The notes beneath the pieces are model-generated. The model searched no databases. It was not told the DNA's origin and saw only the letters and a program-made list of their open reading frames with translations. Positions 21,573 to 63,739 of a stretch of 64,000 bases of DNA are shown in pieces. The stretch is from a virus: positions 1 through 64,000 of IMG/VR virus record IMGVR_UViG_3300023179_000082; one strand, written 5' to 3'. Both the position numbers and the translations under genes were made by a program. Positions within the stretch are counted from its first letter, which is position 1. Each line of letters starts with the position of its first letter.

Positions 21573-24500
21573 TTATTGTTGTAACACTGTTGGAGTGAGG
21601 CTAGCCACGATAACTATATCGTTTGCAGTAGCACCATTAACAAAAATTTCATAAGGTGCACAGCGAACTTCGTATAAATCACCAAATTTTTGGTTTGGAT
21701 CTTGTGGTACGACAACAACAGAGTTAATTAAATCACCTAATTCAACATGCAAATAAGCTGTTAATTCACTAAAATAGAAAGTATCACCAAAATTCCATTT
21801 ATCCAAACTAAAATAGCTGTTTAGGGCAGTTAATGTAGCACTGCGTATTTGACTATCGCTAGCTGTTGTAAAAGGACTTTTGATTATTTTAATCGTACCA
21901 CGTAATGCAGGACTTGCTTTTTGTCCAAATAATGGTTTAAATTGTACACTATTGAGCACTACACTATCACTTAACATTTTGTAATTATCAACATCACCAT
22001 AAGCTTGAGTTAGTTGATTGATTGTAGGCACAGGTGGTTCTACCAATACATCAGTTGTATCGTTTAACCAATTAGTATATTCTGTATAATATTGTTGCGT
22101 GACCAAATATAAATCAATAATATTGGTTGTTGCAGGATCAACACGTGTAGTATTATTACTATTATGTCGATATTGGAAAATAATAGCACCACGTCCTGTT
22201 TCCACACTGTATTCATTAGTTACATCACTTAACGATACAGTATTAGTTACATTGTTAAGCACTGTATCATACCAACCTGCTACTGTTTTAATCGTACCAT
22301 TAGTAGCAGTTGTACCTGTTAATGGTGTAGTCAAGCTTGGATCAGTATATAAAGCAAACGTTGTTGATGTATATCCCGTAGTTTTTACATAACGTACACC
22401 GTTGTTCGCACCTGCTCCCGTAATAACCACACGTTGTCCATCAGCAAACGAATGAACCGCAGTGGTAACAACTGCAGGAGTTGCATTAGTAATACTTACT
22501 ATAGTATAGGATACAGGATCATAGTCAGTATAGAAAGTTGTTCCTGCAGGATACAAGTAACGATTGGCAAATACGTCTGCGTAAGTTTCTTGTGCAATCA
22601 CGATGGCACCGTTGGGTACAATTTCTTGACGATATAAACCTAACGCATCGGTAATTGTACGGAAAAATACATACGGATATGGACTTGTTGTTGTATCAGT
22701 AATTAATTCAAAGAAATCAGGATCAATAGGATAGCCTGTATCTGAATCTACACTTGTAATTTCTACAGCGTAATCATCAGTATAACCATCAGTTTGTACA
22801 GGTTGCGCTATAATATCCAAATAATAATCTGTTCCCAATGGTTGAGCAGATTGTAAATTAGAATTAGTGCCTTGAATATTAACAAAATCAGCTATTGTTC
22901 TACCACTTTTGTTATCAAATACTTTTTCAAATGAATCAAAAAAGAACCTAACTTGCTCTACACTACCAAAATAATACTGTAATGTACGATAACGCACAAT
23001 GTATACATTATCTGTACTATTAAAAGTAAAGCTCATAAAGTAACTTGTTGGTACTACTGAACTTGTTGGTATAGGTTGTATAACTTCCCAACGTTCTAAA
23101 TTAGAAGTAATACTATTATCAAAACTTAAAGCAAAATCTTGATGCAATTGTATTAAATTTAAACATTGACGTATAATAGTGTTACTTAATGAAGTATCAA
23201 TCGATGGAATAATGCCTGTTGCTGTGGTTGTTACTGTACCACCACTAGAATAAGCAGTGTAAATGGCTGTATTAACAGGATTTTCTAAAGCAGGATCATT
23301 ATATAGACCAAATGTTGTTGCACCATATCCTGATGCTTTGGCATAGTATGTCTTACCATTAATTTCAGTCATACCTACTACACCCGTAATTACTACTTCT
23401 TGTCCATCAATTAAATAATGTGAGCTGCTAAGGGTAACGACCCCTGGGGTGGCTTGGGTTAATCCCGTTACAGTATAAGTTTCATTCATTGTTTTATCAA
23501 TGATAGCAGTTTGTGGAACATATTCACTAAGGGTAATCGGTCCGCTACCTGTATCTAAATTACCCACACCATAATTACTACCATCACCAATAACTTCTTC
23601 TACCCCAACCCAAATATATGTTTTATCACCTATAGTATAGTTTGGTGTGCGTGTAACAATACGATTATTCTTATCAAAGCATTGTGTATCAGGATCAGGG
23701 CACACAAACTTAATCAAGGTACCTTGAGCAATATATTTTAAATCATAACCGTTAAGTGGACCAACTGTTTGAGGATAATCAGCAGTAGTGCTAATATAGA
23801 AATATCCTGTTACATTGTCACTATTTACTGTGGACAAGTTCCAATATACTTGATAATCACCTGTTACACCTGCAGGAGTGTAATATCCACTATAGCGTGG
23901 ATAATATTCTAGATAATATTGTTGACATTGTGCGCTACTTATAATTTGTTTAAAGTTTTGTGTTAAAAATTCTGTAGCAAAATTAATATTACTTAAACTA
24001 AATGTTGTAGCAGATGTTGGCGCACCTGTTGTTGTATCATCGCCATTTGCTATCCATAATGCACCATCATTAGCAAATACGTTAGTACTACTATATTTTC
24101 CTGTTGGGTCAAGCAAGTCTAAACCACGTGTTACACCAATACTACTGCGATTCAGTGCTTTAGACTTGATAATACTATTATATAAAGTATATGGAAAATT
24201 AGTATAATCTTCGCCATTAACCATACGATTTTGCGTATAGTATCTTGCAGGAGCACGTTCTTTAATGCTGACTAAACTTTCACGTGTTAATGCTGTGTTA
24301 ATTGGGTTTTGTAAGCTTAATGTAAGGGTTAATGTTTCAACACGGTTAGTACGACTTAGGTACCCAATATTTACTGTAATACCTTGTATTTCATTAGGAT
24401 CAATGGTATACTTCAACGCATTACCACTACGAACATATGCTCTAAATGCACCTACGGGAATTTCAGCGAAAACACCATCACCAAATACGTACGTAACTTG

Positions 24501-25508
24501 GTCATTAGCACGTGAGGTCACACTGAAAATAGTTCGTAAACTATTTTCAAGCTGTAGTTGAGAATTAGCATAAATGCTTTCTACTTGAGTCCAAATTTGG
24601 TCAGTATTGCCTTGTGAGTCTAATTTAAATAACCATGTATCTGTATTGTTGATACCTTCAATATTAATAAATTGTATATTATTTTCTACTGCATCAGGAA
24701 AGTTAAAATCTACATTTTGCAATACACCTTGTTTAAAATAAACAAACCATCCTGTGTTAGAACTGCCATATCCTAAGCGATCATTTTGATATAATATATT
24801 AAATGTACCACTTGGTGCGGGTGGTATTTCGTATAGATAATCACGATTTAAACTAGTTACACTGACCACTTCGAAGTTCATATCTACACCATCTACTTGT
24901 GCAACAAATGGAACAATAGGCAAATACCCCCCAGGTATACTTAACGTATACTCGTCTGTTTTTGTACCAAGTAGGGTAGCGGAGTTACCCGGTTTGCCTA
25001 CGTATTGACTACTAATCAGTGCGCTATTAATAATTGAAGTAAATTGTGTTTGCCAATATGGGTTAGCAGGATCATTCCACTGTATAGGTTGATTGGCTAA
25101 TGGTGTGCCATTAATATCACGTATATCTTCAGTAGTTTGTATGGCAGTAACTTTTAGTGTGCCTTGTGCTGTTACATTACGTTTTGGTGTATAACTAACA
25201 AGATTGGCAAGTTTAATAACACTGTCACGTCTTTCTGCGGTATCAATAAAATTTTCACGTGCATTAAGGTCACTACGAAAAGCAAGTGCCTGACCCATAT
25301 ATGCCATCACATCTAGCAGTGCGATAAATTCACTACTTTCTATATAATCATTAAAAGTTTCAGGATAGTAGGTGGTAAGATAATCAATAAAAGTTTTACG
25401 TAAGGTTTCGTAATCGTAGCTAACAAAATCAGCTTCACGATAAGTTTGATATATTTTTTTCCAATCTTGTACACCAAAAAGCGCACTTTGTCTGCTACTA
25501 GATGCCAT
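21573..25508 (-). CDS. 6: Baseplate wedge protein gp6-like, enlarged (1311 aa)
   Basis: T4-type gp6 forms the inner ring of baseplate wedges and belongs to the Baseplate_J-related proteins. The N-terminal 100 residues (DWKKIYQTYREADF, ETLRKTFIDYLTTYYPETFNDYIESS, AYMGQALAFR) and the middle (ALTRESLVSIKERAPARYYTQNRMVNGEDY, near residues 405-435, with the typical ERAP and V-x-GEDY elements) match the family. At 1311 residues it is about twice T4 gp6 (660 aa). The excess includes FCCH-like beta modules near residues 677-760 and 1000-1080. The C-terminus (ALNSYFSLDKWNFGDTFYFSEL, YLHVELGDLINSV) is again family-like. The start is supported by AAGGA 6 nt upstream and a perfect TATAAATA at 25527-25534. 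It lies between gp25 and the giant gene, as gp6 does in related phages. Confidence 0.9.
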   Translation of the reverse strand: MASSSRQSALFGVQDWKKIYQTYREADFVSYDYETLRKTFIDYLTTYYPETFNDYIESSEFIALLDVMAYMGQALAFRSDLNARENFIDTAERRDSVIKLANLVSYTPKRNVTAQGTLKVTAIQTTEDIRDINGTPLANQPIQWNDPANPYWQTQFTSIINSALISSQYVGKPGNSATLLGTKTDEYTLSIPGGYLPIVPFVAQVDGVDMNFEVVSVTSLNRDYLYEIPPAPSGTFNILYQNDRLGYGSSNTGWFVYFKQGVLQNVDFNFPDAVENNIQFINIEGINNTDTWLFKLDSQGNTDQIWTQVESIYANSQLQLENSLRTIFSVTSRANDQVTYVFGDGVFAEIPVGAFRAYVRSGNALKYTIDPNEIQGITVNIGYLSRTNRVETLTLTLSLQNPINTALTRESLVSIKERAPARYYTQNRMVNGEDYTNFPYTLYNSIIKSKALNRSSIGVTRGLDLLDPTGKYSSTNVFANDGALWIANGDDTTTGAPTSATTFSLSNINFATEFLTQNFKQIISSAQCQQYYLEYYPRYSGYYTPAGVTGDYQVYWNLSTVNSDNVTGYFYISTTADYPQTVGPLNGYDLKYIAQGTLIKFVCPDPDTQCFDKNNRIVTRTPNYTIGDKTYIWVGVEEVIGDGSNYGVGNLDTGSGPITLSEYVPQTAIIDKTMNETYTVTGLTQATPGVVTLSSSHYLIDGQEVVITGVVGMTEINGKTYYAKASGYGATTFGLYNDPALENPVNTAIYTAYSSGGTVTTTATGIIPSIDTSLSNTIIRQCLNLIQLHQDFALSFDNSITSNLERWEVIQPIPTSSVVPTSYFMSFTFNSTDNVYIVRYRTLQYYFGSVEQVRFFFDSFEKVFDNKSGRTIADFVNIQGTNSNLQSAQPLGTDYYLDIIAQPVQTDGYTDDYAVEITSVDSDTGYPIDPDFFELITDTTTSPYPYVFFRTITDALGLYRQEIVPNGAIVIAQETYADVFANRYLYPAGTTFYTDYDPVSYTIVSITNATPAVVTTAVHSFADGQRVVITGAGANNGVRYVKTTGYTSTTFALYTDPSLTTPLTGTTATNGTIKTVAGWYDTVLNNVTNTVSLSDVTNEYSVETGRGAIIFQYRHNSNNTTRVDPATTNIIDLYLVTQQYYTEYTNWLNDTTDVLVEPPVPTINQLTQAYGDVDNYKMLSDSVVLNSVQFKPLFGQKASPALRGTIKIIKSPFTTASDSQIRSATLTALNSYFSLDKWNFGDTFYFSELTAYLHVELGDLINSVVVVPQDPNQKFGDLYEVRCAPYEIFVNGATANDIVIVASLTPTVLQQ
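22285..22515 (-). repeat. FCCH-like module, divergent copy in gp6
   Basis: Protein segment SITNATPAVVT, then DGQRVVITGAG, then TGYTSTTFALYTDP and TNGT. It aligns in order with the module at 23229-23480 but has lost the GM-x2-ING element. Boundaries approximate. Confidence 0.5.
23229..23480 (-). repeat. FCCH-like module, first copy in gp6
   Basis: Residues about 677-760 of gp6: TGLTQATPGVVT, DGQEVVITGVVGM, ING-x-TYYAK, ATTFGLY, YTAYSSGGT. Closely matches the module at the C-terminus of the giant protein (2718-2980), indicating module exchange between tail genes. Confidence 0.6.
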
Positions 25509-39797: not shown

Positions 39798-40371
39798 TTA
39801 TTATAGAACAATAGGTTTGGTTGCATGACCTGTAACGCAACGTAGGTACACTAATTAAAGTTGGTTAATGCCTTGGCTGAGTTCTACAGCAGCTTCAATA
39901 GACTATCCCCAAGACCCATGTGGTTGTAAGGACGCTATAAACGGATGCCCATTGGTAGTCACGTTTCTATTGTCGTAATAGTTGAATCTACTGTAAAGTA
40001 GGTTAGGGTAAAAAGTATTTTTTATCAAGTGCTCGATCATAATAATAGTGGAAAAGGGTCGAGACTGTGTTAATAGCTAACTCACTGAGGTTATTAACGT
40101 TACAGTGTATGCGGTGTGTTTCTTGTACAAACAAGTTTTGGGGTGATATAGTCAAACCTACCTGAATAAAATGCACGAAGTGAGCACCTTCTACGAGAGT
40201 GGGCGGGGAAGAAGAACCAAATGTGTGGATTATTGCAACTGTAAAAAGTTACATTTATCCACCTTTTTGCAAAAAAGATAAACGGAAAAATAATAATAAA
40301 AAAAAATATGAGTGTACGTGGCTGAAGCGATAGCGTAAGCTTAGTACACGAATAGATGACCTTTGGTCATC
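39754..40371 (+). ncRNA. Candidate large structured RNA, group I intron-like core
   Basis: A 618-nt stretch with no gene, between the converging nuclease gene and 75-codon ORF. On the plus strand it shows long-range complementarity: GACTAT+CCCCAA (39901-39912) with TTGGGG and ATAGTC (40138-40143, 40148-40153, 4-nt bulge); GGTCTT (39793-39798) with AAGACC (39911-39916, competing with the first helix at AA); GTGCTC (40029-40034) with GAGCAC (40182-40187). Local hairpins: 39820-39841, 39876-39890, 39985-40004, 40032-40063, 40069-40098, 40122-40135, 40225-40262. AGACTA ... GATATAGTC with a GGTCTT/AAGACC partner resembles P7 and P3 of group I introns. No split host gene is seen, so it may be a free-standing RNA. 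The 3' part (40312-40371) has GTGTAC/GTACAC and a terminator-like hairpin. Fold and strand are inferences from reading by eye. Confidence 0.45.
40355..40371. terminator. Hairpin between converging units
   Basis: GATGACC (40355-40361), TTT loop, GGTCATC (40365-40371): a perfect 7-bp stem directly after the stop of the leftward 75-codon ORF and at the end of the rightward RNA region. The U-tract is poor on both strands, so termination strength is uncertain. Confidence 0.4.
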
Positions 40372-40599
40372 TTAAAAGAATGGTAATCCACTTTTCTTAG
40401 TAACTTCTAGATTTTCATCAATTAACTTGTTAATAATATTAGTTTCAGTTGGTGAAAGATTCATAGCATCAACATATGATAATGAACCACGCATATACCA
40501 TGCTGCTTTTAAAGCATTGCGTTTAATAATAGTAACTTCTTCTTCGTATCCTTTTACTAGCTTCTCTATATCATCTTGTGATAGATAGAGAAGCCTCAT
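40372..40599 (-). CDS. Tail assembly chaperone-like ORF, likely -1 frameshift extension of gp26
   Basis: A 75-codon ORF (MRLLYLSQDDIEKLVKGYEEE ... YMRGSLSYVDAMNLS ... KKSGLPFF) overlapping the end of gp26 by 4 nt (ATGA). The YMRG-x-LSY-x-DAM and LPFF ending recall small proteins encoded next to gp26 in T4-like marine phages, the position of T4 gp51, but the match is only suggestive. It lies exactly in the -1 frame relative to gp26, downstream of a TTTTTTC heptamer, so it may be made mainly as the C-terminal part of a 348-residue gp26 fusion. Independent re-initiation at the ATGA overlap is the alternative. The helical, charged sequence is compatible with a chaperone that binds the tape measure. 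Confidence 0.65.
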   Translation of the reverse strand: MRLLYLSQDDIEKLVKGYEEEVTIIKRNALKAAWYMRGSLSYVDAMNLSPTETNIINKLIDENLEVTKKSGLPFF

Positions 40600-40608
40600 T
40601 CGAAAAAA
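40560..40608 (-). promoter_or_regulatory. Candidate programmed -1 ribosomal frameshift signal
   Basis: On the minus strand, the gp26 frame reads GA-T TTT TTC-GAA-TGA: TTTTTTC (40608 to 40602) is an X-XXY-YYZ heptamer in the zero frame. After a 7-nt spacer (40601 to 40595) comes a perfect 10-bp stem, GCTTCTCTAT (40594 to 40585) with ATAGAGAAGC (40569 to 40560), 15-nt loop. A -1 slip reads TTT TTT CGA ATG, entering the frame of the 75-codon ORF. All three elements of a classical signal are present. Confidence 0.75.
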
Positions 40609-41417
40609 TCGGTAACACTAAATGTTATAGTTTGATTATATTCGTGTTGGCAACTTACGCATTTAAATCGTAATGGTTTAGATTGACTACTTTCACGCAA
40701 TTCTATATTGTGATCACGTATTGTGTCATACATTTTCTTATCACAGTTTTGTAAAAAATCCAAGATAAAAGGTTGATTTGATACACTAGTTTCAGGTGTT
40801 CTAATATATTCTATATTTTTAGATAGAATTTTTTGTGTTAAGTTGTTCATACGTACTAGCAATTCACTAGCTGCTTTATTCTTAACCTCACCATCCTCAT
40901 AATTTTCTAATTGTGCTAAACCACGTTGTATTTCAAATTGTTCAGCACTAGCATTATTATTATCTTGGTAGGTAGTTGACCTAAACTTGATTGCTAAATC
41001 ACCTACAACTAATTCAGTATTATAGTCACCAACTTGAATAGTGCTTATTAATTTTGAAAGGTTAATACCATAACGATTACTATTTTTACATGCAGGACAA
41101 TTTGTGTCTACGTCCATTTCATCACCGTTAGTGGCTATACGAATTGATATTAATACAGTTTCTAAGTCAGCATTAAGTAATAACCATGGATTTTTAATGG
41201 TTGGTACACAACTTTGAATGATGGAGACTACTGCTGAACCATTATACAAAGCATCAGGTGTACGTGCAGTAATTTCATCATTTGCAGTCATTGGGTATAC
41301 AGGAAGTTCACCTGTTGGTGGTAAATCTACGATTTCTGATGAATATTTGTAGTTGCTAGGTAAACGTATATGTATAGCAGGTCTGCGAAAATACTGCTTA
41401 AGTGGGTTGTTTTCCAT
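40596..41417 (-). CDS. 26: Baseplate hub/tail assembly protein gp26-like (273 aa)
   Basis: Resembles the T4 baseplate (gp26) family: after a short tail, LPVYPMTANDEITARTPDAL, SIIQSCVPTIKNPWLLLNADLETVLISIRIATNGDEM, then a zinc-ribbon-like pair CPACKN (near 115) and CVSCQHE (near 258). The start at 41417 (MENNPLKQYF) is supported by GGAG 11 nt upstream; an upstream ATG at 41498 would add 27 hydrophobic residues and overlap the divergent tape-measure start, so I reject it. The stop sits within a frameshift signal that would fuse it to the 75-codon ORF. Adjacent, divergent to the tape-measure candidate. In lambda-type phages such frameshifted pairs chaperone the tape measure; I infer the same role. 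Confidence 0.75.
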   Translation of the reverse strand: MENNPLKQYFRRPAIHIRLPSNYKYSSEIVDLPPTGELPVYPMTANDEITARTPDALYNGSAVVSIIQSCVPTIKNPWLLLNADLETVLISIRIATNGDEMDVDTNCPACKNSNRYGINLSKLISTIQVGDYNTELVVGDLAIKFRSTTYQDNNNASAEQFEIQRGLAQLENYEDGEVKNKAASELLVRMNNLTQKILSKNIEYIRTPETSVSNQPFILDFLQNCDKKMYDTIRDHNIELRESSQSKPLRFKCVSCQHEYNQTITFSVTDFFE

Positions 41418-41486: not shown

Positions 41487-44400
41487 ATGGCAGACCAACT
41501 TGATCCTGAATTAATGCGTCAGCTCAATGATAAATTCACTGAGTTATCAAATTCTATTACTACGATTGGCACTATTTCAGCCAAATCAATGAAATCAGTG
41601 GAGGACAATACTCAAAAAGTTGACAAAAATACATCATCTACTGAAGATAATACTAAAGCAACGGATGAAAATACTAGTTCAATCAAGCGTAATACTACTG
41701 CAGTAAACAGTCAGTTAAAGACTACGGAAAAAAATACTCAAGCATCTTCTGATCAAACTGATGTTATTAAAGAAGCTAATAATGCTATAAAAAATCAAGC
41801 ACAAGCGGTTGGTGCTAGTAAAAAAACATTTGATGATTTAACAAAAGCCACTAATCAGCAATTTAAATCATATATGGCAACTGAGGTTGCAAAAGAGCAA
41901 ATAAGTGGTGCATCAGCAAAAGCTCAGCAAGAATTAAATTCTAGACTAAAACTATCAAGCATTGGAATGGAAGTATTCCAAACAGGCGTAGAGGGTGTTA
42001 AGAAAGTTTTTGATGCTGCGATTGATGCGCAAATGAACTATACTAAAGCTTTGTTGCAGGGTACACGTGGTTTAGGTTTGGAAGCGCAGCGTAGAGAAAC
42101 TGAAGGCAAAGCTGTAAACCAAGTTATACGTGATTTTGGCAACTTAAGTATGTCGATTGGTGGATTGATGGTGGCGTTAGGACCGTTTGGTATAATTGGT
42201 CGTATTGTAGGTTTGGTTGGAGTAGGTGTTGGTATTTTGGCACAGTATGAAGCAAAAGCACGAGATTTTGCTTTGGAAGTGGCTACTATTACTGAACAGT
42301 TAAAAGATAAACTGTTTGATACTTTCAAAGATTTAAGTAATTCTGCTTTAACTACTGCAGGAGGTATGACCACATTACGTGCTCAAATGAAGAAGTTTGA
42401 TTTTGCTATGGCTGAAGTTGGTCAATTTGCAGCCGTAATAAAAGGTGCGGGTAAAGAGTTATCACAAATTGGTGGTTCTACAGTTAAAGGTTTAGAAAAC
42501 TTTGTTGAAACTGCTGCAGATTTGTTTGAAAGTCAACTTGGTAAAGAGTTGCAATACATGGGCTTGGATCGTGAAGAACAAATGAAAGGAACATTAAAGT
42601 TCTTAAGTTTACAAGCTAGATTAGGTGTTCAACAAGAAAAAGACATTAAAAAGTTATCACAATCAGCAGGAAAATACATATCAGAATTAGACCAATTAGC
42701 TACGCTAACAGGTATAACACGTCAAGAACAAGAACAAGCACGTGAACAAGTTATGGCAATTGAGGAATTACGTGCTGCTTTAGTGGAAGAAACTGCAAAA
42801 GGTGCTGCTGCAGATAAAGGTCGCTTAAAAGTATTAGAAGATGCCATACAAGTATCTACTGTATTAACTGCAGAAGGCATGAAAGAAGCAGGTGCTTCAT
42901 TAGCTAGAACAGTTGCTGCAGGTGGTGTAACAAGGGCTGAAGATGCTAAATTATTACAAACTGCACCACAATTTTTACAGAATATGATGCAAGGTGTGGG
43001 TAGTGTAACCGACAATTTACAATTATTTGGTAAAGAATCTAAACAAACATTGACACAATTGTCAAGCGCAGTAAAAGTATCAGGTGATATTGGTAAGGAA
43101 ATAGCAGCAGTTGACTACGCAAAATTATTTGATTTCATACCAAAAATAGATAAGATTGCAGAATTACAAAAACAATTCCCTGAGAAAACATTACCACAAA
43201 TCGTAGATGAAATGCGTAAGGTAACCGATCCCGCTACTAAAGCAGTACAAGATTTAATAAATGCTCAAAGAAAAGACGCAATTGCAAAAGAAGAATCAGG
43301 TGGAGGAATAAAAGGGGCAGCGGATTTACTAAAGTCAGGTGCACAAATATTTGGTATAAATGTTGAAAATTTTGGAAAATATGTACGTCAATTATTAGGA
43401 ATAAAAGACACTGCTAAGGTAGAAAAAACTGAAGCAACTAAAAAAGCAGAAGCTAAAGTAGAAGAAAAGAAAAAAATTACTGATATAGCCACTGAAAAAG
43501 CAACTGCTGCATCCATGGCTGAGGATCAAGCTAAGAAAGAATTAGCCGAACTATATAAAAAGGGTGACGTTGCAGGTGTCGAAGCTAAAAAAGTTGAAAT
43601 ACAAAAATTAACTGACGAGCGTATGAAAGCTGAACAAGAAATGATGGTTGCTTCACGTGATCAATCACAAGCTGCTTTAGAAGCTTCAAACCAACGTAAA
43701 AAAGATATACGAGAAGTAAACCAACTTGATGATAAAATAAGATTTTATAAAGATTCAATTAATCTTAACAATATGAAAATTGATTCATTATCAAAAGACC
43801 AAGTTGAATTAAATATAGAACTTAAAAAATCAACGGGATTTGCTAAATTAGAAAATGAAAATCGATTAAAACATCTTACTCGATTAAGAGAATTAGCAGA
43901 AAAAGAAGTAAAAGAAGCAGAAGAAAATATCAAAAAAAGTGAAGAACGTAAAAAAGAACTAGAAAAGAAAACGTCTACCGCTACCCCAACCCCTGCAGCA
44001 TCTTCACAAGAACGTAAAGAATTTGTGGACAAAATGTATGCAACATTACTTGAGCAAGCTAAAAAACAAGGTGTTGCAAATCCTGAAGTTGTTGCTAGAT
44101 TAGGTGTTGCTCAATCTGCTTTAGAAACAGGGTATGGTAAATCCACTGCAGGTGGTCAAAATTATTTTGGTATTAAAGCAGGTAAAGGTCAGCCTAGTGT
44201 CACTGCGGAAACTGAAGAATTTGATGCAGCCAAAGGTGTAATGGTCAAACAACAAGCTGCGTTTAAAAAATATAGTAGCATGGAAGAATCTGCTGCTGAT
44301 TATATTAAATTCTTAAAAGAAAATCAGCGATATAAGGAAGTATTAGCAGCAAAAACACTTGACGAGGCTATTCTAGCACAAAGTATGTCAGGTTATGCTA

Positions 44401-44699
44401 CTGATCCACGTTATGGACAAAAATTAGCAACTATTAACCAAAATATCGCACAAGAGCCAGGAAAAATGTTCGATGGTGGCGTAGTAACTAAACCGTTAAC
44501 AACCACATTACGTGATGGTGGACAAGATGAAGCAGTTATTCCATTGAATAAGTTAGCAGATTTAATACCTATAAAGTCATTAGTTGATGCTATAGAACGT
44601 CAAACAGCAATGTTAACCCAAGGTTTTGAGAACATGACTGACAAATTAGCTGAAAATAATAGCATGGTAAGTGACCAATTATTGTACATGCAGAACTAA
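41487..44699 (+). CDS. Probable tape measure protein with glucosaminidase-like domain (1070 aa)
   Basis: N-terminal 110 residues are a polar, Asn/Thr-repeat coiled coil (DNTQKVDKNTSSTEDNTKAT). A hydrophobic segment near residues 219-255 (SIGGLMVALGPFGIIGRIVG) and long charged helices up to about residue 830 give the profile of tail tape measure proteins. From about 840 to 990 there is a peptidoglycan-hydrolase domain of the glucosaminidase (FlgJ/LytG) type: EVVARLGVAQSALETGYGKS with E880 as the likely catalytic Glu, GQNYFGIKAGKG, F-x-KYSSMEESAADYIKFL and YATDPRYGQKLATI. The C-terminus resembles a tape-measure tail motif (FDGGVVTKP, VIPLNKL). Neighbours: gp26 pair (divergent) and portal (downstream, 14-nt gap). 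T4 gp29 is 590 aa; this longer protein may mean a longer tail. No strong ribosome site. Confidence 0.72.
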   Translation: MADQLDPELMRQLNDKFTELSNSITTIGTISAKSMKSVEDNTQKVDKNTSSTEDNTKATDENTSSIKRNTTAVNSQLKTTEKNTQASSDQTDVIKEANNAIKNQAQAVGASKKTFDDLTKATNQQFKSYMATEVAKEQISGASAKAQQELNSRLKLSSIGMEVFQTGVEGVKKVFDAAIDAQMNYTKALLQGTRGLGLEAQRRETEGKAVNQVIRDFGNLSMSIGGLMVALGPFGIIGRIVGLVGVGVGILAQYEAKARDFALEVATITEQLKDKLFDTFKDLSNSALTTAGGMTTLRAQMKKFDFAMAEVGQFAAVIKGAGKELSQIGGSTVKGLENFVETAADLFESQLGKELQYMGLDREEQMKGTLKFLSLQARLGVQQEKDIKKLSQSAGKYISELDQLATLTGITRQEQEQAREQVMAIEELRAALVEETAKGAAADKGRLKVLEDAIQVSTVLTAEGMKEAGASLARTVAAGGVTRAEDAKLLQTAPQFLQNMMQGVGSVTDNLQLFGKESKQTLTQLSSAVKVSGDIGKEIAAVDYAKLFDFIPKIDKIAELQKQFPEKTLPQIVDEMRKVTDPATKAVQDLINAQRKDAIAKEESGGGIKGAADLLKSGAQIFGINVENFGKYVRQLLGIKDTAKVEKTEATKKAEAKVEEKKKITDIATEKATAASMAEDQAKKELAELYKKGDVAGVEAKKVEIQKLTDERMKAEQEMMVASRDQSQAALEASNQRKKDIREVNQLDDKIRFYKDSINLNNMKIDSLSKDQVELNIELKKSTGFAKLENENRLKHLTRLRELAEKEVKEAEENIKKSEERKKELEKKTSTATPTPAASSQERKEFVDKMYATLLEQAKKQGVANPEVVARLGVAQSALETGYGKSTAGGQNYFGIKAGKGQPSVTAETEEFDAAKGVMVKQQAAFKKYSSMEESAADYIKFLKENQRYKEVLAAKTLDEAILAQSMSGYATDPRYGQKLATINQNIAQEPGKMFDGGVVTKPLTTTLRDGGQDEAVIPLNKLADLIPIKSLVDAIERQTAMLTQGFENMTDKLAENNSMVSDQLLYMQN

Positions 44700-52536: not shown

Positions 52537-55500
52537 ATGCAAATTACTAACGTAACCGCAGGATCTGGGATGGTTATAAATGGATCTCCTAACAATACTG
52601 CAGATTCAAATTTTAAAAATACAACAATGTTATTATCAGGTATGCCTGAAACATACAATAATTGTTTACAAGATGAAAGTGGATATAATTTTAGTTTAAT
52701 TTCAGTTGGTGACACTAAAGTTTCGAGCTTTACCCCGTTTTCATTAGTTAATAGTGTTTATTTTAATGGATCATCAACTCTTACGACAGGTACTAGTTTA
52801 ACTATTGGAACTAATAATTTTACTTTTGAGTGTTGGGTTTATGTCGCAACAGGAGCTGCATTAGGTACCATTACTTTATTTTGTAATGATATTGCTACAA
52901 CAGGTTTGAATATACAAATGACTGCATCAACGGTTGGGTTATATACTACTGCCCCAAGTACTTTATTAGAAGCTACGGGACAAACTTTTATACCGAATCA
53001 ATGGTATCATGTTGCGGTATCTAGAGTTGGCACAGGAGCAGGTCAAACAGGAATTTATGTAAATGGTATAAGATTAACGACAGGAACAGTAGCAACTAGT
53101 TTTCCTGCAGCAAATTCTAGACTAGGTTCAAGAAATGGTAATGTAAATTATTTAACGGGATTTATTTACAATGCTCGTTTAGTTAATGGATCAGCAGTTT
53201 ACGATCCTACAACTACTACACTTTTTAATCCCCCATTATCACCGTTAACAGCGGTAACAAATACAGCTTTACTAACTTGTATATACAACAGATTTAGGGA
53301 TGGAAGTACAAATAATTCGACATTTACTGTATCAGGAACTCCCAACGTACATCTTTTCAATCCTGCATCAATATCTAATAGACAATTTTTTGGACAAACT
53401 AGTGGATCAATTTTATTTGACGGGACAGGAGACTACATAACGGGACCATCAGGAAGGCTTGCGTTTTCTTTTAGGTCAGCAGATTTTACAATTGAATGTT
53501 TTCTATATTTGACAGCATTAACAGCAGCTGGTGCTATTTGTGGAGTATGGACAGGCACTGCTTCAACTTCACAATGGCTTTTTACTCAAGGTAACACACT
53601 TGGTACTGCACTACGTTTTGGAATGTCTGATGGTACAACAACTACATTTGTCGAAAGCACTGCCGCTTTAGTTATAAATCAATGGATGCATGTTGCGGTG
53701 TCAAGACAAAGTGGTACTTTACGAATGTTTATAAATGGAACACAGGTGTACAGTGCTGCAGGTTCTACTACAATGCTTACTACATCAACAGTTCTGTCAA
53801 TTTTTTCAGTTTCAGATGGAACAGTTACGAGTGCAGGGTACCTATCTAATTTACGTATACTAAATGGGACAGCTTTATACACAGGTAATTTTACAGTACC
53901 AACCACTCCGTTAACTTGGACTCCTACAACTAGCTTATTAACTGCAAAATATTCTTTTGCTCCAAATTCTTATATGATGTACGATCAAAGTGTAAATCAA
54001 TATAATTTTACAAGAGCGAATGTAGTGATGACAAATACATTTACACCATTTGCAACGAATGGATGGAGTAATCGTTTTAATGGCTCATCTGCGTTAACTA
54101 TAGCATCTAATACGCAACTTGCTCCTGGTACAGGAAATTTCACAATTGAAGGATGGGTTAGGTTTACAGCTTTTCCTGCAGCATCGGGAACAGCGGGTAT
54201 ATGCCAAAATGAATTAACTATAACATCAGCAGCAACAAATGATAAATTTTGGTTTGGATTATATAATAATGCAGGTGCCTATAATTTAGTATTAGGGCGA
54301 CATACCATTACTTGGAATACTACATCATACGTTGCTTGGACACCATCTTTAGGCGTTTGGTATCATGTTGCTGCTGTGATAAATTCAGGTACAACTTTAT
54401 TGTTTATTGATGGCATTAGCCAATCCGTAACAAATAATACGTATTTTAATGGAGTTTCATTATCACAAAATGGATTTGCTATTGGAGCTATTTCTAACGC
54501 ACAATATTTAAATGGTAATATCAGTAATTTTAGATATGTTGTCGGGCAAGCAGTTTATACTTCAAATTTTACTCCTTCAACGGTTCCACTTACTACAACA
54601 ACTGCAGGTGTTACTTCTATTAATACTAGGTTGCTAACAGCTCAGTCATATGGTTTTCTAGATAACAGTGGCGCATGTACTTTTGTTGGAAGTATATCAG
54701 CTACTACTTTAACAGTTACTTCAATTATTTCAGGACAATTAAAAATAGGATGTGTAATAAGTGGTTTGGGTGTTACTACAAATACAACAATTACTGCTTT
54801 GGGAACGGGAACAGGAGGAGTTGGAACTTATACTGTTGGAACATCACAAACAACAAATTCAGTATTCATGAAAACTAATGGTGCAGCGTTTACTTTTGTA
54901 GGAACCCCGATTGTTGATGCTTTAATGCCATTTACACCATCTACTGCTATTACACCAAATACTCCTGCATATAGTTTAACTTGGGCAGGTGGCAGCTATT
55001 ATTTTGATGGAACAAACGCAGGACTTACTGCTTTTACTATAATAAATGGTAATTCAAATACTTTTTTTAATTTTTTACACAACACTTGGGCTAAATTCAC
55101 CATCGAGGCGTGGATTTATCCTACAGCTACAGGAACTTTTCGATATATATGTGGAACTGCAGCAGGAAATGGCACCTCTACGCATGTAGGTGTTGCATTT
55201 TACTTAAATACTTCCAATCAATTATGCCTAGACGTTGACAGGGGTGTCAGTGCAGCTTATGTTTTTCAAAGCAGTGCGGGTGGTACAGTGTTAGCAAATC
55301 AATGGACTCATGTTGCGGTAACATACGATCAATCTTTGACTACTAATAACGCACGATTTTATATTAATGGAATGAATACATTAAGTGGAACAAAAACTGC
55401 AAATGCTCCATCGACTTCAAATTCCACATATAATTTTAGAATAGGAGAAGATGGGGCAGGAGGGGGTGATTGGACAGGTTGGATTACAAACCTAAGAGTT

Positions 55501-56979
55501 GCTAATGAAGTGTTATACGATAATGTTTTTATGCCACCAACTGCCCCACCTGGCTTGTCTCAATACACAGCATTATTGGCTTTGGGTACAGAGGGAAGTT
55601 TTACAGATATAACAGGAAGAAATAATTTTAGAGCCGTCAGTAATGCCCAAAATAATACTGCTAACCCAAAATGGCAAGGATTATCTTCTATTTTCGTTAA
55701 TGCGATTAATCAAGAGCAAGAATATACAACTGCGGGTACGTATACATTTATTGCACCTGGAGGTTTTTCATCAGTAAGTGTAGTTGCTATTGGTGCGGGG
55801 GGAAGTTCAGCTATAGCCACTGGTGGTGGTGGGGGTGGTGGTTTAGGATATGCAAATGTATCCGTAACAGGTGGTTCACCCTATACGGTAGTTGTTGGTG
55901 GGGCAGGTGGTAGAAACACAGCTACCGCAGGGGGGCAATCATATTTTTCAGCCACCAATGTTGTTGCAGGTAATGGCGGTGGTGGTTCACCAACTAGAAC
56001 AGGTGGGGGATTTGTAGGAAATGGTGGTGGAAGCGGTGGGACTGGATCAAGCGTCAGCGGAAATACAGGAGGTTCAGGTGCGGGTGCTGGGGGATACGCC
56101 GGTTCTGGTGGAAATGGAAATGCAAGCGCACCTGCAGGTGGAGGTGGTGGTGGCGGTTTTAATGGAAGTAACGGATCAGGTTGGTCAGGTGGCAGTGGTG
56201 GTGGCGGGGTAGGAATTTATGGTCAGGGGGCAAGCGGTGCGGTAGGTGCTTGGACTACTGCAACCCCCTTTGTTCAAAATACAGGTGGAGGTGGCGGTTC
56301 AGGTGGCACACCAGGTGGTGGTGCAGGATCAACCGCAAGTGCAATGCCTGGTGGTGATGGTGGTTTATATGGTGGTGGCGGCGGTTCGGGGATATTAAAT
56401 CAGGGAGCTGAAACAGGTGGTGCTGGAGGTAGAGGCGCAGTAAGGATTGTTTGGGGAACAGGTAAAAATTACCCTTCGACAAACGTTACATCAAATATAA
56501 TAAGTGGTTATTTGATTTCAAACAACACAAGTAATTCACTAGCTTTTGGGACGGGTAATTTTACACTTGAATTTTGGATCTACCCTACTATATCAGGATC
56601 TTACACACTTATTGATACACGTGCAGCATCAACAGCAACACCTTACACAGTATCAATTGATAGTAGTAATTTTCCAAATATATATGATGGAACATCAACA
56701 TTTACTAGTACAGTAGCAGTTACGGTAAACACTTGGAATTTTGTTGCATATTCAAGATCATCAGGAACTCTTAATATTTATGTAAACGGCACAAGAGGTT
56801 ACAGTGCAGCTAATTCTAGTAATTTTACAGGAGCAGGAACCCTAAATTATATTACCAATAACGTTGGATTAACCTCTTATTTTAACGGATATATCCAAGA
56901 TTTAAGAGCTACTGTAGGAGTTGGTCGCTATACAGCAACAACAATGGATGTACCAACTGCTCCATTAACAAGTTTTTAA
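52537..56979 (+). CDS. LamG-repeat and glycine-rich tail adhesin (1480 aa)
   Basis: Five concanavalin/LamG-like domains, each with F-x-GSS or FGTG, FT(I/L)E-x-W and QW(Y/M/T)HVAV and NG motifs: about residues 68-235, 300-470, 515-705, 820-1020 and 1350-1480. Between the third and fourth is a [13 protein letters not shown]-type module (about 710-770) widespread in phage fibres. Residues about 1070-1310 are strongly glycine-rich with GGGG runs, like the polyglycine type II helical adhesins (gp38 of S16-like phages). LamG folds bind glycans, so it is probably a receptor-binding or surface adhesin. It has no Shine-Dalgarno site. The glycine-rich DNA is much richer in G than its surroundings. Confidence 0.8.
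55795..56455 (+). repeat. Glycine-codon-rich tract in the adhesin
   Basis: About 660 bp of GGT/GGA/GGC/GGG codon runs giving (G)n blocks separated by short Ser/Asn/Ala segments. Compositionally distinct from the AT-rich rest of the window and likely prone to recombination. Confidence 0.75.
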
Positions 56980-58483: not shown

Positions 58484-61400
58484 ATGGCTCTAGAAATTAT
58501 TAATATTGGTGTATTACCAAACGATGGCACAGGTGATCCTGTACGTGTTGCCTTTGAAAAAATTAATTACAATTTTAATCAAGTTCAAAGTGGTAACACA
58601 TTTAGCTATGTAAGCGGTCCTGAAGATAGCGTACAATATAAGAAAACAAATGACTTACAAGCAGTTGCGGTAAAAGGTAATATTACGTTAGCTGTCGGAT
58701 TTCCTGCACGTGCTTACACAAGTATTGGTAACCTAGCAACAGCCAATTGGGTTGAACAATCATTACCAACTAACAATAATATAAATGATTTAATTGTTGC
58801 AGGAGCTAATTTTTGGGGAGTTGGGGCAAACGGAACGGTAGTTACTAGTGTTGATGGTGTAACATGGGCAAATGCTATTACCGCTAGTAATGTTAACTTA
58901 AATGCGGTAATTTTTGATAGTGCTAATACATTATTTGTTACAGTAGGTGATAATGGAAAATTATTAACAAGTGGTAATGGTGTAACATGGACAACACGAA
59001 CTACAGGAACATCGGAAAATTTGCATGGTATTGCATTGTCACCAAATGTTGGGTATGTTGCTGTTGGAGCAAATGGTACATTAATCTATAGTTCTAACGC
59101 TATAGCATGGACAAGTGGTAATAGCACAGTTTCAACTACACTGCGTGATATTGTATATAATGGTAATGTTTTTACTGCAGTAGGTGACAGTGGTACAGTA
59201 ATTAGTAGTTTAAACTTAACATCATGGGCAAATCGTACAAGTTCAGCTAATATCAGCGTAAATTTAAACAGTGTATCATATGCAAATATTGCTAATGTAT
59301 TAACATTAGTAGCAGTTGGTGCAAACGGGCAAACTTATAAAAGTGTTGATGGTAATGCGGTAACATGGACAAGCATTGTAGATCCATTATCAAGCAATTT
59401 AAACAGTATTGTTCGTGGTGCTAACGCATTTGTTGCAGTTGGTAATACAAGCGCAGTTATTAATTTAGCTGATAGTGCAAATACATGGAGTAATGTTAGT
59501 TTACCAACAAGAATGGAAGGTAATATAAACTTTTTATATGACCAACCTAATGCAAACTTGTTACTTAATGCTAATATTATACCACAAGCAAATGGTAATA
59601 TTAGATTAGGTACAGCAAATAACAGAATAAACACTGCATTTTTTACTACATCAAATTCAAATACTGCTATTGCATCGAACTTATCTGTAACTAATAGTGC
59701 TATTGTAGCTAATTTAACTGCCACTCAAGCAACAATTACAACCTTTAATGTAACAGGTTTATCGAATTTAGGAAACATTTCCAACGTTACTATTTTGGGT
59801 GGAAATAATGGTTATTTTCTACAAACTGATGGTTCAGGTAATTTAACTTGGGCACCTGCAGGTAATGGAGGTGGTGGTAATGGCAGTCCAGGTGGCGCAA
59901 ACACTCAAGTACAATATAATAACGCAGGTGATTTTGGCGGTGATGCGGGATTTACCTATAATGATGTAACAAATACTTTAACTGTCAACACGATTAGTTC
60001 ATATAATCAGACAGTTAGTAATAATATATCAACTAATACTGCAACAGTTGTAGGAAATTTAACATCAGGTAATGCAAGCTTAGGGAATTTAGCCACTGCA
60101 AACTATATTAATGTAAATTGGGATGTATCTGCTAATGTAATATATGGTAATTATTTGTATGGAGATGGTTCAAACTTAACAAACTTACCATATTCATCAA
60201 ATGCAAATTATGCCGCTTATGCAGGTGAAGCATTTTTAGTAAGTGGTTCAAATGTTGTTGGTGATGTTGCTAATGCAAATTATGCGAATTTTTCAGGTAA
60301 CGCATATTCAGTTGACGGAGCTAATGTTGTTGGTGAAGTTGCTAATGCAAATTATGCTTCATTTGCTAACGTAGCAAACAGTGTAAGTAGTCCTGTTGCT
60401 AATGCAAATTATGCGAATTTTGCAGGAAATGCTTTTTCGGTAGATGGTGCTAATGTTGTTGGTGAAGTTGCTAATGCAAATTATGCAATGCATGTTGATG
60501 TTGAACCTGTATTAGATAATTTCAGTTATCATGTTGTATTGGTAGCAAATCCTGGCGACAATCATCTTAAGGTCGATGGCGATGATCAACTACAATATAA
60601 CCCACAATTTGGTATTTTAACATCAAATCGTGTTGATGCAAATTTATTTGTAGGTAATGGACATTTTCTCACTGATTTAACAGGTGCTAATGTAACAGGA
60701 GAAGTACCATATGCTAACATTGCAAACTCTGTTGCTGGTGCAAATGTTACAGGAACCGTAGCAAATGCTAATTATGCAGCATTTGCAGGTAATGCAAATT
60801 TTGCATCCAATGTAGCATATGCGAATGCTTCTAACACAGCGAATTCCGCTAATACATCTAATGTTGCTATCACGGTAAGTGGTAATGCTCAACCAAATAT
60901 AACAAGTGTTGGAAACCTGACAACATTAAATGTTACAGGAGCATTATTTGCAGCAACGGGTAATTTTTCAGGTAATGGGTCATTTGGTAACTTACAAGTA
61001 GTCAATCAAATACGTGTTGGTTCAAATATAATAGCTAATGTTGGTTCTAATCTTATTGCCTATGGCAATGTTGATTTTTATAATGCAACTGATGTAAACC
61101 TTGGTGAAATTACAGAATTACATATATCAGGTGGATCGAATGGTTATTTCTTACGTACAGATGGTGCAGGTAACCTAAGTTGGGCAGCAGTTTCTAATGG
61201 TGGAAATGCTGTCACCCCACCAGGCGGTTCAAACACTCAACTACAATATAATAATGATGGGAATTTTGCAGGAAGTGCAGCATTAGTATTTGACAATACA
61301 AGCAATGTATTAACTGTAAGTGGTCCGCTAGTTGCAACCCAACTTTCTGTTTCAGGTAATATTGGTGGCGCAAATGCTAATTTAGGCAACTTAGTTATTG

Positions 61401-63739
61401 CAAACTTTTTCCAAGGATCAGGTAATAGGTTATCAAATATACAAGGTGCTAATGTTTCAGGTACGGTAGCTAATGCAAATTATGCTGTATCTGCTAATTT
61501 TGCTAATACTGCAACCAATGCAAACTATGCCAATTATGCAAACATTGCAAGTGTTTCTAACCTTACATTATTTGCAAATACTGCAAATACTGTGGTTGTT
61601 AATGCACAACCAAACATTACAAGTGTTGGTAATTTAGTTAGTCTTGTAGTAGATGGTAATTTATATTCTAATAATTCCAATGTTGAAGGTAATGGTTCTT
61701 ATGGAAACCTACAAGTTGTAAATGAAATTAGGATTGGAAATACTTTTATTGCTAATTTTGGTTCTAACCTTATTGCATATGGTAATGTTGATTTTTATAA
61801 CGCAACTGATGTAAATCTTGGTGAAGTTACAGAATTACATATAGCAGGTGGATCTAACGGATATTTTCTACGTACAGATGGTGCAGGTAATTTAAGTTGG
61901 GCGGCAGTTAGTAATGGAAGTAATGCCAATGTTAATGCTGCGGGATCAAACACTCAGGTACAATTTAACGATGGTAATGCGTTTGGTGCAAGTGCAGCAT
62001 TTGTTTTTAACAAAGCAGCAAATATATTAACAATTACAGGTGGAATTGTTGCATCATCATTGGGTACTACTGCTAATATTACAGCAGCAAATGCAACGCT
62101 TGGTAATTTAGTTGTTGCCAACTTCTTCCAAGGTTCAGGTAATCGTTTATCTAACATTCAAGGTGCCAACGTAAATGGTGAAGTTGCACTTGCAAATTTT
62201 GCCACTTATTCTATTAGTGCCAATTTAGCAAACACTGCCAATATTGCTAATACTGCGAACAATGCAAATTTTGCTACTTTTTCAACAAATTCAAATGTTG
62301 CTATCACAGTAAGTAATAATGCTCAACCTAATATAACTAGTGTTGGTAATTTGACAAACCTAGTAGTAACAGGGGGAATTTTTGGAAATACAGGTAATTT
62401 TACTGGAAATGGGTCATTCGGTAATTTACAAGTTATCAATCAAGTAAGAATAGGTTCAAATTTAATAACAAATGCAGGATCTAATCTTATTGCATATGGT
62501 AACGTTGATTTCTTCAATGCAACAGACGTAAACCTCGGTGAAGTGACTGAACTACATATCGCAGGTGGTTCAAATGGATTTTTTCTTCAAACTAATGGAT
62601 CAGGTAATTTAACATGGGCACCTGCTTCGGGCAATGGAGGAGGTTATCCCCCAGGCGGCTCTAATACATATGTTCAATTTAATGATGGTGGAGCTTTTGG
62701 TGGAAGTGCAAATTTTTATTATAATAAAACGACTAACTTATTAACTGTAAATGGCAATATTAGTGGCAGTAATATTAATAGTTCAGGTAAAATTACTGCA
62801 ACAGGAAATATTCAAACTAATTCATTTTTTGTTGGTAATGGTATTTACATTACAGGGATTAATGCTGAAACAGCCAATTATGTAACTCAACCTGCTCAAT
62901 CTAATATAACGTCAGTAGGTAATTTGATATCGTTAGATATAATAGGTGACTTAACAAGCACAGGTAATGCAGCATTTTCAGGTGATATAGGTGCTAGTAA
63001 CATTAACTTAACCCGAAATGTTACGGCAAGTAATGGTACATTTACGGGAACACTGAGAGTTAATTCAGCAGGAACATTAAGAAGTTTAGGTAATGTAGTT
63101 TTTGCAGGTTCACCTAATATTTCTTTAGGTACTGTAGCTAATATTCGTATTACAGGCGGCACGAATGGATATGTATTATCAACTGATGGATTAGGTAATT
63201 TAAGTTGGGTAACGCCTGGCGGGGGTGGAGGAAATGGCTCACCAGGAGGTTCAAACCGTCAAATTCAATACAATGATAGTGGTGCATTTGGTGGTAGCCC
63301 ATTCTTTACTTTTGATAGTTCAGTTAACAATGTTACGATTGGGGGCAATTTAATTGCAAATACCATTACAATTGGTAGTGGCATTTACCAATTTAGTCAA
63401 TCAAATGTTTATTTTGCAGCAACAACTAGTAATGCAGCAAACCAAGAAATAATTTCAATTCCCACAGCAAATCTTGCAGGTATTGATTTTACTATTCTTA
63501 GTGATGATATTGGTGGAAATATTAGAACTCTAACTAAAATTTCGTCCGTGGTATTAGGATCAGTTATTAATTATAATGAAACTAGTAGTTTAGCAGTTAA
63601 TGGGTATACAGGTGATTACGTTGTTCAATATAACCCAGGCAACATCACTCTAGCACCATCTGCACAATTACTTTTTTCTCCTCAATCAGCAAATTATACT
63701 ACGTTAAAAATGATGATTACAACGTATAAAGAACTGTAA
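58484..63739 (+). CDS. Repeat-rich tail fibre protein (1751 aa)
   Basis: The N-terminus MALEIINIGVLPNDGTGDPVRVAFEKINYNFNQV is the conserved head of fibre-like proteins in marine T4-like phages. Residues about 55-350 form a BNR/YCF48-like propeller (TSVDGVTW, VAVGANGT, TAVGDSGTVIS). Then come Asn/Ala-rich repeats (GANVVGEVANANYA) and a 239-residue unit present three times (starts near 60903, 61620, 62337), each with ITSVGNL, GNGSFGNLQV, SNLIAYGNVDF-x-NATDVNLGE and TDGAGNLSWA. The C-terminus (FTILSDDIGGNIRTLTKISSVVLGS, then YVVQYNPGNITLAPSAQL) is probably a trimerisation or tip domain. I infer a long tail fibre that contacts the host. Confidence 0.82.
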   Translation: MALEIINIGVLPNDGTGDPVRVAFEKINYNFNQVQSGNTFSYVSGPEDSVQYKKTNDLQAVAVKGNITLAVGFPARAYTSIGNLATANWVEQSLPTNNNINDLIVAGANFWGVGANGTVVTSVDGVTWANAITASNVNLNAVIFDSANTLFVTVGDNGKLLTSGNGVTWTTRTTGTSENLHGIALSPNVGYVAVGANGTLIYSSNAIAWTSGNSTVSTTLRDIVYNGNVFTAVGDSGTVISSLNLTSWANRTSSANISVNLNSVSYANIANVLTLVAVGANGQTYKSVDGNAVTWTSIVDPLSSNLNSIVRGANAFVAVGNTSAVINLADSANTWSNVSLPTRMEGNINFLYDQPNANLLLNANIIPQANGNIRLGTANNRINTAFFTTSNSNTAIASNLSVTNSAIVANLTATQATITTFNVTGLSNLGNISNVTILGGNNGYFLQTDGSGNLTWAPAGNGGGGNGSPGGANTQVQYNNAGDFGGDAGFTYNDVTNTLTVNTISSYNQTVSNNISTNTATVVGNLTSGNASLGNLATANYINVNWDVSANVIYGNYLYGDGSNLTNLPYSSNANYAAYAGEAFLVSGSNVVGDVANANYANFSGNAYSVDGANVVGEVANANYASFANVANSVSSPVANANYANFAGNAFSVDGANVVGEVANANYAMHVDVEPVLDNFSYHVVLVANPGDNHLKVDGDDQLQYNPQFGILTSNRVDANLFVGNGHFLTDLTGANVTGEVPYANIANSVAGANVTGTVANANYAAFAGNANFASNVAYANASNTANSANTSNVAITVSGNAQPNITSVGNLTTLNVTGALFAATGNFSGNGSFGNLQVVNQIRVGSNIIANVGSNLIAYGNVDFYNATDVNLGEITELHISGGSNGYFLRTDGAGNLSWAAVSNGGNAVTPPGGSNTQLQYNNDGNFAGSAALVFDNTSNVLTVSGPLVATQLSVSGNIGGANANLGNLVIANFFQGSGNRLSNIQGANVSGTVANANYAVSANFANTATNANYANYANIASVSNLTLFANTANTVVVNAQPNITSVGNLVSLVVDGNLYSNNSNVEGNGSYGNLQVVNEIRIGNTFIANFGSNLIAYGNVDFYNATDVNLGEVTELHIAGGSNGYFLRTDGAGNLSWAAVSNGSNANVNAAGSNTQVQFNDGNAFGASAAFVFNKAANILTITGGIVASSLGTTANITAANATLGNLVVANFFQGSGNRLSNIQGANVNGEVALANFATYSISANLANTANIANTANNANFATFSTNSNVAITVSNNAQPNITSVGNLTNLVVTGGIFGNTGNFTGNGSFGNLQVINQVRIGSNLITNAGSNLIAYGNVDFFNATDVNLGEVTELHIAGGSNGFFLQTNGSGNLTWAPASGNGGGYPPGGSNTYVQFNDGGAFGGSANFYYNKTTNLLTVNGNISGSNINSSGKITATGNIQTNSFFVGNGIYITGINAETANYVTQPAQSNITSVGNLISLDIIGDLTSTGNAAFSGDIGASNINLTRNVTASNGTFTGTLRVNSAGTLRSLGNVVFAGSPNISLGTVANIRITGGTNGYVLSTDGLGNLSWVTPGGGGGNGSPGGSNRQIQYNDSGAFGGSPFFTFDSSVNNVTIGGNLIANTITIGSGIYQFSQSNVYFAATTSNAANQEIISIPTANLAGIDFTILSDDIGGNIRTLTKISSVVLGSVINYNETSSLAVNGYTGDYVVQYNPGNITLAPSAQLLFSPQSANYTTLKMMITTYKEL
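60244..60486 (+). repeat. Short tandem coding repeats (GANVVGEVANANYA)
   Basis: Three closely matching DNA segments encode variants of NVVG(E/D)VANANYA, starting near 60248, 60321 and 60453; the last two are almost identical in nucleotides (AATGTTGTTGGTGAAGTTGC shared). Indicates recent expansion or recombination inside the fibre gene. Confidence 0.6.
60903..62700 (+). repeat. 717-bp repeat unit, three copies
   Basis: Equivalent points (CAAGTGTTGG-type motif encoding TSVGNL) fall at 60903, 61620 and 62337, exactly 717 bp (239 codons) apart. The encoded order TSVGNL, GNGSFGNLQV, AYGNVDF, NATDVNLGE, GNLSWA is kept in each; the third copy ends near 62640-62700, and a partial fourth TSVGNL occurs near 62910. 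Nucleotide sequence has drifted more than protein. Confidence 0.75.

Follow-up and report, generated by a model that had tools for sequence, protein, structure and literature searches.

In phage P2, the tail assembly chaperones gpE and gpE+E′ are made by −1 frameshifting at a T-rich heptamer, and in phage lambda gpGT bridges the tape measure protein and the tail tube. The lambda products gpG and gpGT, a short form and a rare long form, result from a −1 shift near the 3′ end of a gene that lies next to the tape measure gene (PMC5009743). Genes of T4-like phages have also been linked to tail assembly chaperones (TAC) by Vladimirov et al. 2022, as described in passages of PMC10274946 and PMC12846349. 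These passages mention a short and a long copy in place of frameshifting in some T4-like phages (PMC10274946), as well as poly-T slip sites in T4-like TAC-N genes, which are credited to Vladimirov et al. 2022 (PMC12846349). A parallel in another phage lineage is the TAC locus of Vandenendeviridae/Andersonviridae (phage Adele), for which a poly-T −1 frameshift with the motif GTTTTT was derived from comparative genomics, according to the relevant section of PMC12846349.

We analyzed a stretch of 64,000 nt (“the window”; IMG/VR virus record IMGVR_UViG_3300023179_000082, positions 1 to 64,000), which belongs to a very large phage related to T4 and contains a gp26-type gene. As in lambda and P2, one gene is proposed to yield a short form and a rare long form via a −1 shift. 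In contrast to these systems, the gene and the probable tape measure gene are divergently oriented, its core is larger (273 aa) and has four conserved cysteines, and the stem that follows the slip site is conserved. Frameshifting of this kind is well known from other phages, and the present sequence comparison adds its conservation in many T4 relatives. Taken together, the gp26 gene very likely encodes a tail assembly chaperone that is made in two forms, short and long, by frameshifting.

The junction at the gp26 3′ end

The gp26-type gene is located on the minus strand at positions 40596-41417 (ATG at 41417; 273 aa plus stop) and would encode the short form, a proposed TAC-N. Its 3′ end reads GTT ACC GAT TTT TTC GAA TGA and includes the slippery heptamer T TTT TTC in the zero frame (GAT TTT TTC; 40602-40608, minus strand). 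The heptamer is followed by a spacer of 7 nt (40595-40601, minus strand), which contains the zero-frame stop codon TGA (40598-40596). The two arms of the putative stimulatory stem, GCTTCTCTAT (40585-40594) and ATAGAGAAGC (40560-40569), both on the minus strand, form a perfect 10-bp stem with a 15-nt loop, and an 11th pair (G-U) is possible. The second open reading frame, ORF2, begins at 40599 and encompasses 75 aa in the −1 frame (40372-40599). Counted from the slip site, the −1 extension has 78 codons followed by TAA (40372-40608, minus strand), and it would form the C-terminal domain of the 348-aa TAC-NC. A shift at TTT TTC results in 270 + 78 = 348 residues, with the junction ...TDFFRMRLLYL.... 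The original prediction had described the elements of this junction: the position of the heptamer was exact to the base, the spacer length with its internal stop, the stem coordinates, and the loop length were right, and both the 75-codon ORF exactly in the −1 frame and the fusion of about 348 aa were confirmed.

As judged from the sequence of the junction and its conservation, a backward slip of the ribosome by one base is very probable where gene 26 ends. Most ribosomes would stop at the TGA and produce the 273-aa short form. A minority, delayed by the stem, would move from T TTT TTC to TTT TTT and add 76 codons in the −1 frame, which would lead to the 348-aa long form.

As a check for chance occurrence, the 98 in-frame slippery heptamers that occur in the main ORFs of the window (19,768 codons) were compared. 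The gp26 heptamer is the only one of the 98 that is associated with a perfect stem of at least 10 pairs, and also the only one that opens a −1 ORF of at least 60 codons.

Conservation of the slip site in viral contigs

A first scan of IMG/VR retrieved 13 loci with gp26 identities of 35-90%, and the heptamer together with the −1 ORF was present in all 12 loci that reach the junction. An alignment-based scan retrieved at least 80 further loci; 87 junctions were read, 74 of which are distinct over the compared stretch. Among the matches listed, the sequence NNT TTT TTC is present in 74 of the 74 distinct junctions, down to a gp26 identity of 35%, and the longer form GAT TTT TTC in 71 of them. The stop codon is situated 3 nt past the heptamer in 73/74 cases, and the −1 ORF has a length of 78 codons in 72/74 cases (one ORF has 79 codons, and one is cut by the contig end), again among the matches listed. 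In the relatives of the gp26 locus, Phe is encoded by TTT in only 65% and Asp by GAT in 71% of the cases, so that codon use would not lead one to expect a heptamer without synonymous variation. Because the relatives share kinship, probabilities were not multiplied across junctions. A scan with an exact DNA pattern, the junction set of which overlaps with the 74 junctions, retrieved at least 119 stretches, and the 78-codon −1 ORF was found in 98 of 99 distinct junctions (among the matches listed). By these comparisons, the conserved junction is not attributable to chance.

An alignment of gp26 loci from related phages had been suggested as a check of the prediction. It revealed that the heptamer, the −1 frame, and mostly also the stem are kept, even where ORF2 has no start codon.

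Translation of ORF2

The −1 frame alone is no evidence for a shift, because an ATGA overlap always sets the second ORF in the −1 frame. Therefore, relatives without an ORF2 start codon were sought. The window junction does have an ATGA, ORF2 begins with its ATG, and overlaps of this kind are common in phage operons; ORF2 could thus be a separate small gene that is translated by coupled re-initiation, and the heptamer and the stem would be incidental. A start at codon 3 in Atu_ph07, Phosso, and about 10 of the 74 contigs (among the matches listed) is compatible with this explanation. However, no ATG, GTG, or TTG is present within the first 12 codons of the −1 ORF in 58 of the 74 distinct relatives (among the matches listed), and these relatives nevertheless keep the length of ORF2 and its sequence up to the slip site. 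Coupled re-initiation cannot make ORF2 in these 58 cases, because the first 12 codons do not contain a start codon. In PA5oct, a search for ATG, GTG, and TTG across the whole −1 ORF found none. The invariant heptamer, in spite of the 65% usage of TTT for Phe, also argues against re-initiation, which we regard as highly improbable.

The sequence of the −1 ORF is kept in the relatives from the slip site onward (FFRLRLL...). A median dN/dS of 0.11 (36 pairs) indicates that ORF2 is under purifying selection in the −1 frame; the other two frames of the region contain 6-8 stops each. A conserved −1 ORF that lacks a start codon of its own is the strongest single argument for the proposed frameshifting. 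Homologues of ORF2 at the same place were found in Atu_ph07 (E 1e-8) and Phosso (E 4e-5), and comparisons with Pfam and PHROGs gave sub-threshold matches only. As a query against the viral contigs, an alignment of ORF2 proved to be too weakly conserved. The extension is predicted to be a conserved, all-helical domain (AlphaFold model, pLDDT 84).

The downstream stem

The core of seven stem pairs is formed in 91.7% of the cases (72 distinct sequences), compared with 35-58% when one side is slid. Within this core, seven cells are altered on both sides but still pair; examples are AU in place of GC and UA in place of CG. RNAalifold predicted zero consensus pairs for the whole alignment of 75 junctions, probably because the stem registers differ among the sequences. 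Consensus folding was therefore replaced by a test on each sequence, in which the energy of the 52 nt after the site was compared with synonymous-codon shuffles within ORF2. The observed energy was −14.7 kcal/mol versus a shuffled mean of −7.2 kcal/mol. The mean z value was −2.97 over 75 sequences, p was ≤0.05 in 85% of them, and the window itself had a z value of −6.5. For comparison, three downstream control windows had values of −0.4 to −0.8. Significant stems, which differ in sequence, are present in Atu_ph07, the locus L013, PA5oct, P-SSM2, phiM12, and Cr30, and the shuffles detected no significant stem in GAP32, RaK2, Syn9, and HTVC008M. The stem is thus well supported by sequence data in the window clade, and it is frequent but not universal elsewhere. 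After the slip site of Atu_ph07 (L015:5992-6100), two nested long stems, GGCTCTTTGT/ACAAAGAGCC enclosing TAGAACCGGA/TCCGGTTCTA, fold at −33 kcal/mol and are stronger than the structure in the window clade.

Stem and heptamer together also bear on the question of whether the frame is changed by the ribosome or by slippage of the RNA polymerase on the T run. The window has six T, which is short for transcriptional slippage, and runs of 7-8 T occur in phiM12, Cr30, and HTVC008M. The window clade and most other lineages hold exactly TTTTTTC in the phase X XXY YYZ, with the stem at a fixed distance, an arrangement that is useful to the ribosome and not to the polymerase. Polymerase slippage as the general explanation is extremely improbable, but it is harder to exclude for HTVC008M, Cr30, and phiM12. 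The slip site of HTVC008M directly precedes a TAA.

Named phages with the same layout

The jumbo phages Atu_ph07, Phosso, GAP32, PA5oct, 121Q, and RaK2 carry the slip sequence T TTT TTC together with a related −1 ORF. Among the T4-superfamily phages, T TTT TTC is found at the corresponding position in P-SSM2, Syn9, S-PM2, and KVP40, and T TTT TTT in Cr30, phiM12, and HTVC008M, in each case with a −1 ORF. Altogether, T TTT TTY is found in 13 of the 13 named phages outside of the T4/RB43/RB49 group. The cyanophage and KVP40 loci, i.e. gp26 plus a short “gp51”, share the slip site and the location of the −1 ORF with the window; they differ in being annotated as separate genes and in an extension that is only distantly similar to that of the jumbo phages.

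No named record that was checked for its annotation joins the two ORFs. In the records of P-SSM2, S-PM2, and KVP40, the −1 ORF appears as a small gene of its own, labelled 51 or “baseplate hub assembly catalyst”. The jumbo phage records give ORF2 as a separate gene, give it in truncated form, or omit it altogether, as in PA5oct and RaK2. Joining gp26 and ORF2 would correct many annotations: what is routinely recorded in jumbo phages as a “baseplate hub” gene plus an unannotated or truncated small ORF would be redefined as one chaperone gene with two products.

The gp26 family and the T4 genes 26 and 51

The window gp26 belongs to the family PF12322 (T4_baseplate; E 5.8e-17, 62.5 bits versus a cut-off of 24.5) and matches phrog_150 (baseplate hub; E 5.4e-17). 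The protein has the four invariant cysteines C107/C110/C253/C256 and a C-terminal Phe-Phe. The core was modelled by AlphaFold with a pLDDT of 86.5, and T4-like baseplate hub proteins are its closest matches among viral folds. A fold search of the PDB with this model gave no meaningful match, and thus no solved chaperone structure for comparison.

T4 gp26 and gp51 are both members of PF12322 (E 8.8e-64 and 3.9e-52, respectively). T4 gp26 corresponds to the core, and gp51 to a gp26-type core with a C-terminal extension of about 48 residues. The prediction that T4 uses separate genes 26 and 51 thus holds, and the two are paralogues. Unlike the single gene of the window with its slip site, T4 has two genes and no slip site: gp26 ends with KEFFELL and has Phe-Phe at the homologous place, which is encoded by TTC TTT and not by TTT TTC. 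The −1 ORF of the cyanophage/KVP40 type, the short gp51, matches the end of T4 gp51, i.e. its extension, with an E value of 8e-8. The jumbo ORF2 has a weak profile match to the last 31-34 columns of this extension (E 1.6e-5 to 1e-3, probability 22-79%).

A maximum-likelihood tree was computed for the core and given a midpoint root for display. In this tree, T4, RB43, and the RB49-like phage SFHK24 each have both of their copies within one clade (99/96) beside KVP40, and all frameshift-type genes fall outside of this T4-type clade. Given this placement, the T4 pair looks like the result of a single duplication of a frameshift gene in the T4 lineage. This is the simplest reading of the tree and depends on the root, and the T4 genes 26 and 51 may thus separately encode the same two products. 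In a wider sense, gp26 frameshifting is likely to be the ancestral state throughout the T4 superfamily, RaK2-type jumbo phages included. The T4 genes 26 and 51 would have arisen once, after the split from KVP40, by a duplication, with the slip site lost from one of the copies and the fusion fixed in frame in the second. If this is true, a recoding signal was replaced by two genes. Frameshifting in most of the superfamily versus two genes in T4 represents a natural experiment on the chaperone ratio. In T4, where each form has a gene of its own, it is therefore genetically testable whether the ratio of short to long form needs to be fixed. The T4 comparison in the original prediction therefore stands, while the link between T4-like genes and tail assembly chaperone pairs, expected there to join two tail-assembly styles, had already been published by Vladimirov et al. 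2022, according to the passages of the two articles cited above.

Function and the neighboring gene

The gene at 41487-44699 on the plus strand is divergent from gp26. Its product of 1070 aa contains a glucosaminidase domain (PF01832, E 9e-23) as well as a hydrophobic segment. The next gene encodes the portal. The position of the 1070-aa gene is the same as that of RaK2 ORF088, which is annotated as tape-measure-like, and the similarity to this protein is weak (E 0.016). The product is a probable tape measure protein, identified from this weak similarity. Of the predicted location of gp26 beside the tape measure gene, the adjacency to a probable tape measure gene was found, but the two genes are divergently transcribed and the similarity to RaK2 ORF088 is weak.

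By analogy to lambda gpG/gpGT, the neighboring tape measure protein would be covered by the short form in many copies and the long form in few, and the C-terminal domain of the long form would recruit the tail tube subunits. The long form would accordingly be rarer than the short form and bridge the tape measure and the tube. The signal and its conservation support the original prediction that the phage makes gp26 and a gp26 fusion as a chaperone pair; from them, we infer the product, its ratio, and its role.

It is also conceivable that frameshifting is real, but that the products are parts of the baseplate hub and not chaperones of the tape measure protein. The “baseplate hub” family annotations and T4 genetic work, which places gp26 in the hub (PMC3004832), are in line with this possibility, but the same article also names T4 gp26 and gp51 as hub assembly chaperones. 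Further points against it are the location of the gp26 gene adjacent to the tape measure candidate, the TAC assignment in T4-like phages in passages of PMC10274946 and PMC12846349, and the virion data of two phages. In the published virion proteomics table of phage CBB, no entry was found for the gene 26 product CBB_250, and the adjacent structural protein CBB_251 is listed (29 peptides, 50%); the locus numbers were matched by position beside the portal CBB_252. In the annotation of PA5oct, the gene 26 product is without the ESI-MS/MS mark that its neighbors carry. A role as hub parts is thus unlikely, and we favor the tail assembly chaperone function. The RefSeq label for CBB gp250, “structural protein”, speaks against this function. 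The CBB proteomics article also labels an unrelated lysozyme as CBB_250, which is probably a misprint.

Further features of the window

Just past the −1 ORF (40300-40372) lie imperfect palindromes, i.e. GATGACC AAA GGTCATC and GTGTAC...GTACAC followed by a T run. In spite of this terminator-like palindrome, a scan for intrinsic terminators just past ORF2 scored none.

A single ORF of 6387 aa is located at 2351-21514 on the minus strand. Its only Pfam domain is one E1_FCCH-like repeat, which is also present in the adjacent ORF (21573-25508), and it probably encodes a giant tail or fiber protein of a jumbo-type phage. A protein of 1480 aa with five laminin G/concanavalin A-like lectin stretches is encoded beside the head genes (52537-56979, plus strand) and is a possible capsid decoration or adhesion protein. 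A 72-bp tandem repeat with 2.2 copies (60200-60357) is situated within an ORF of 1751 aa (58484-63739); the repeat is coding, and the protein is perhaps a fiber protein.
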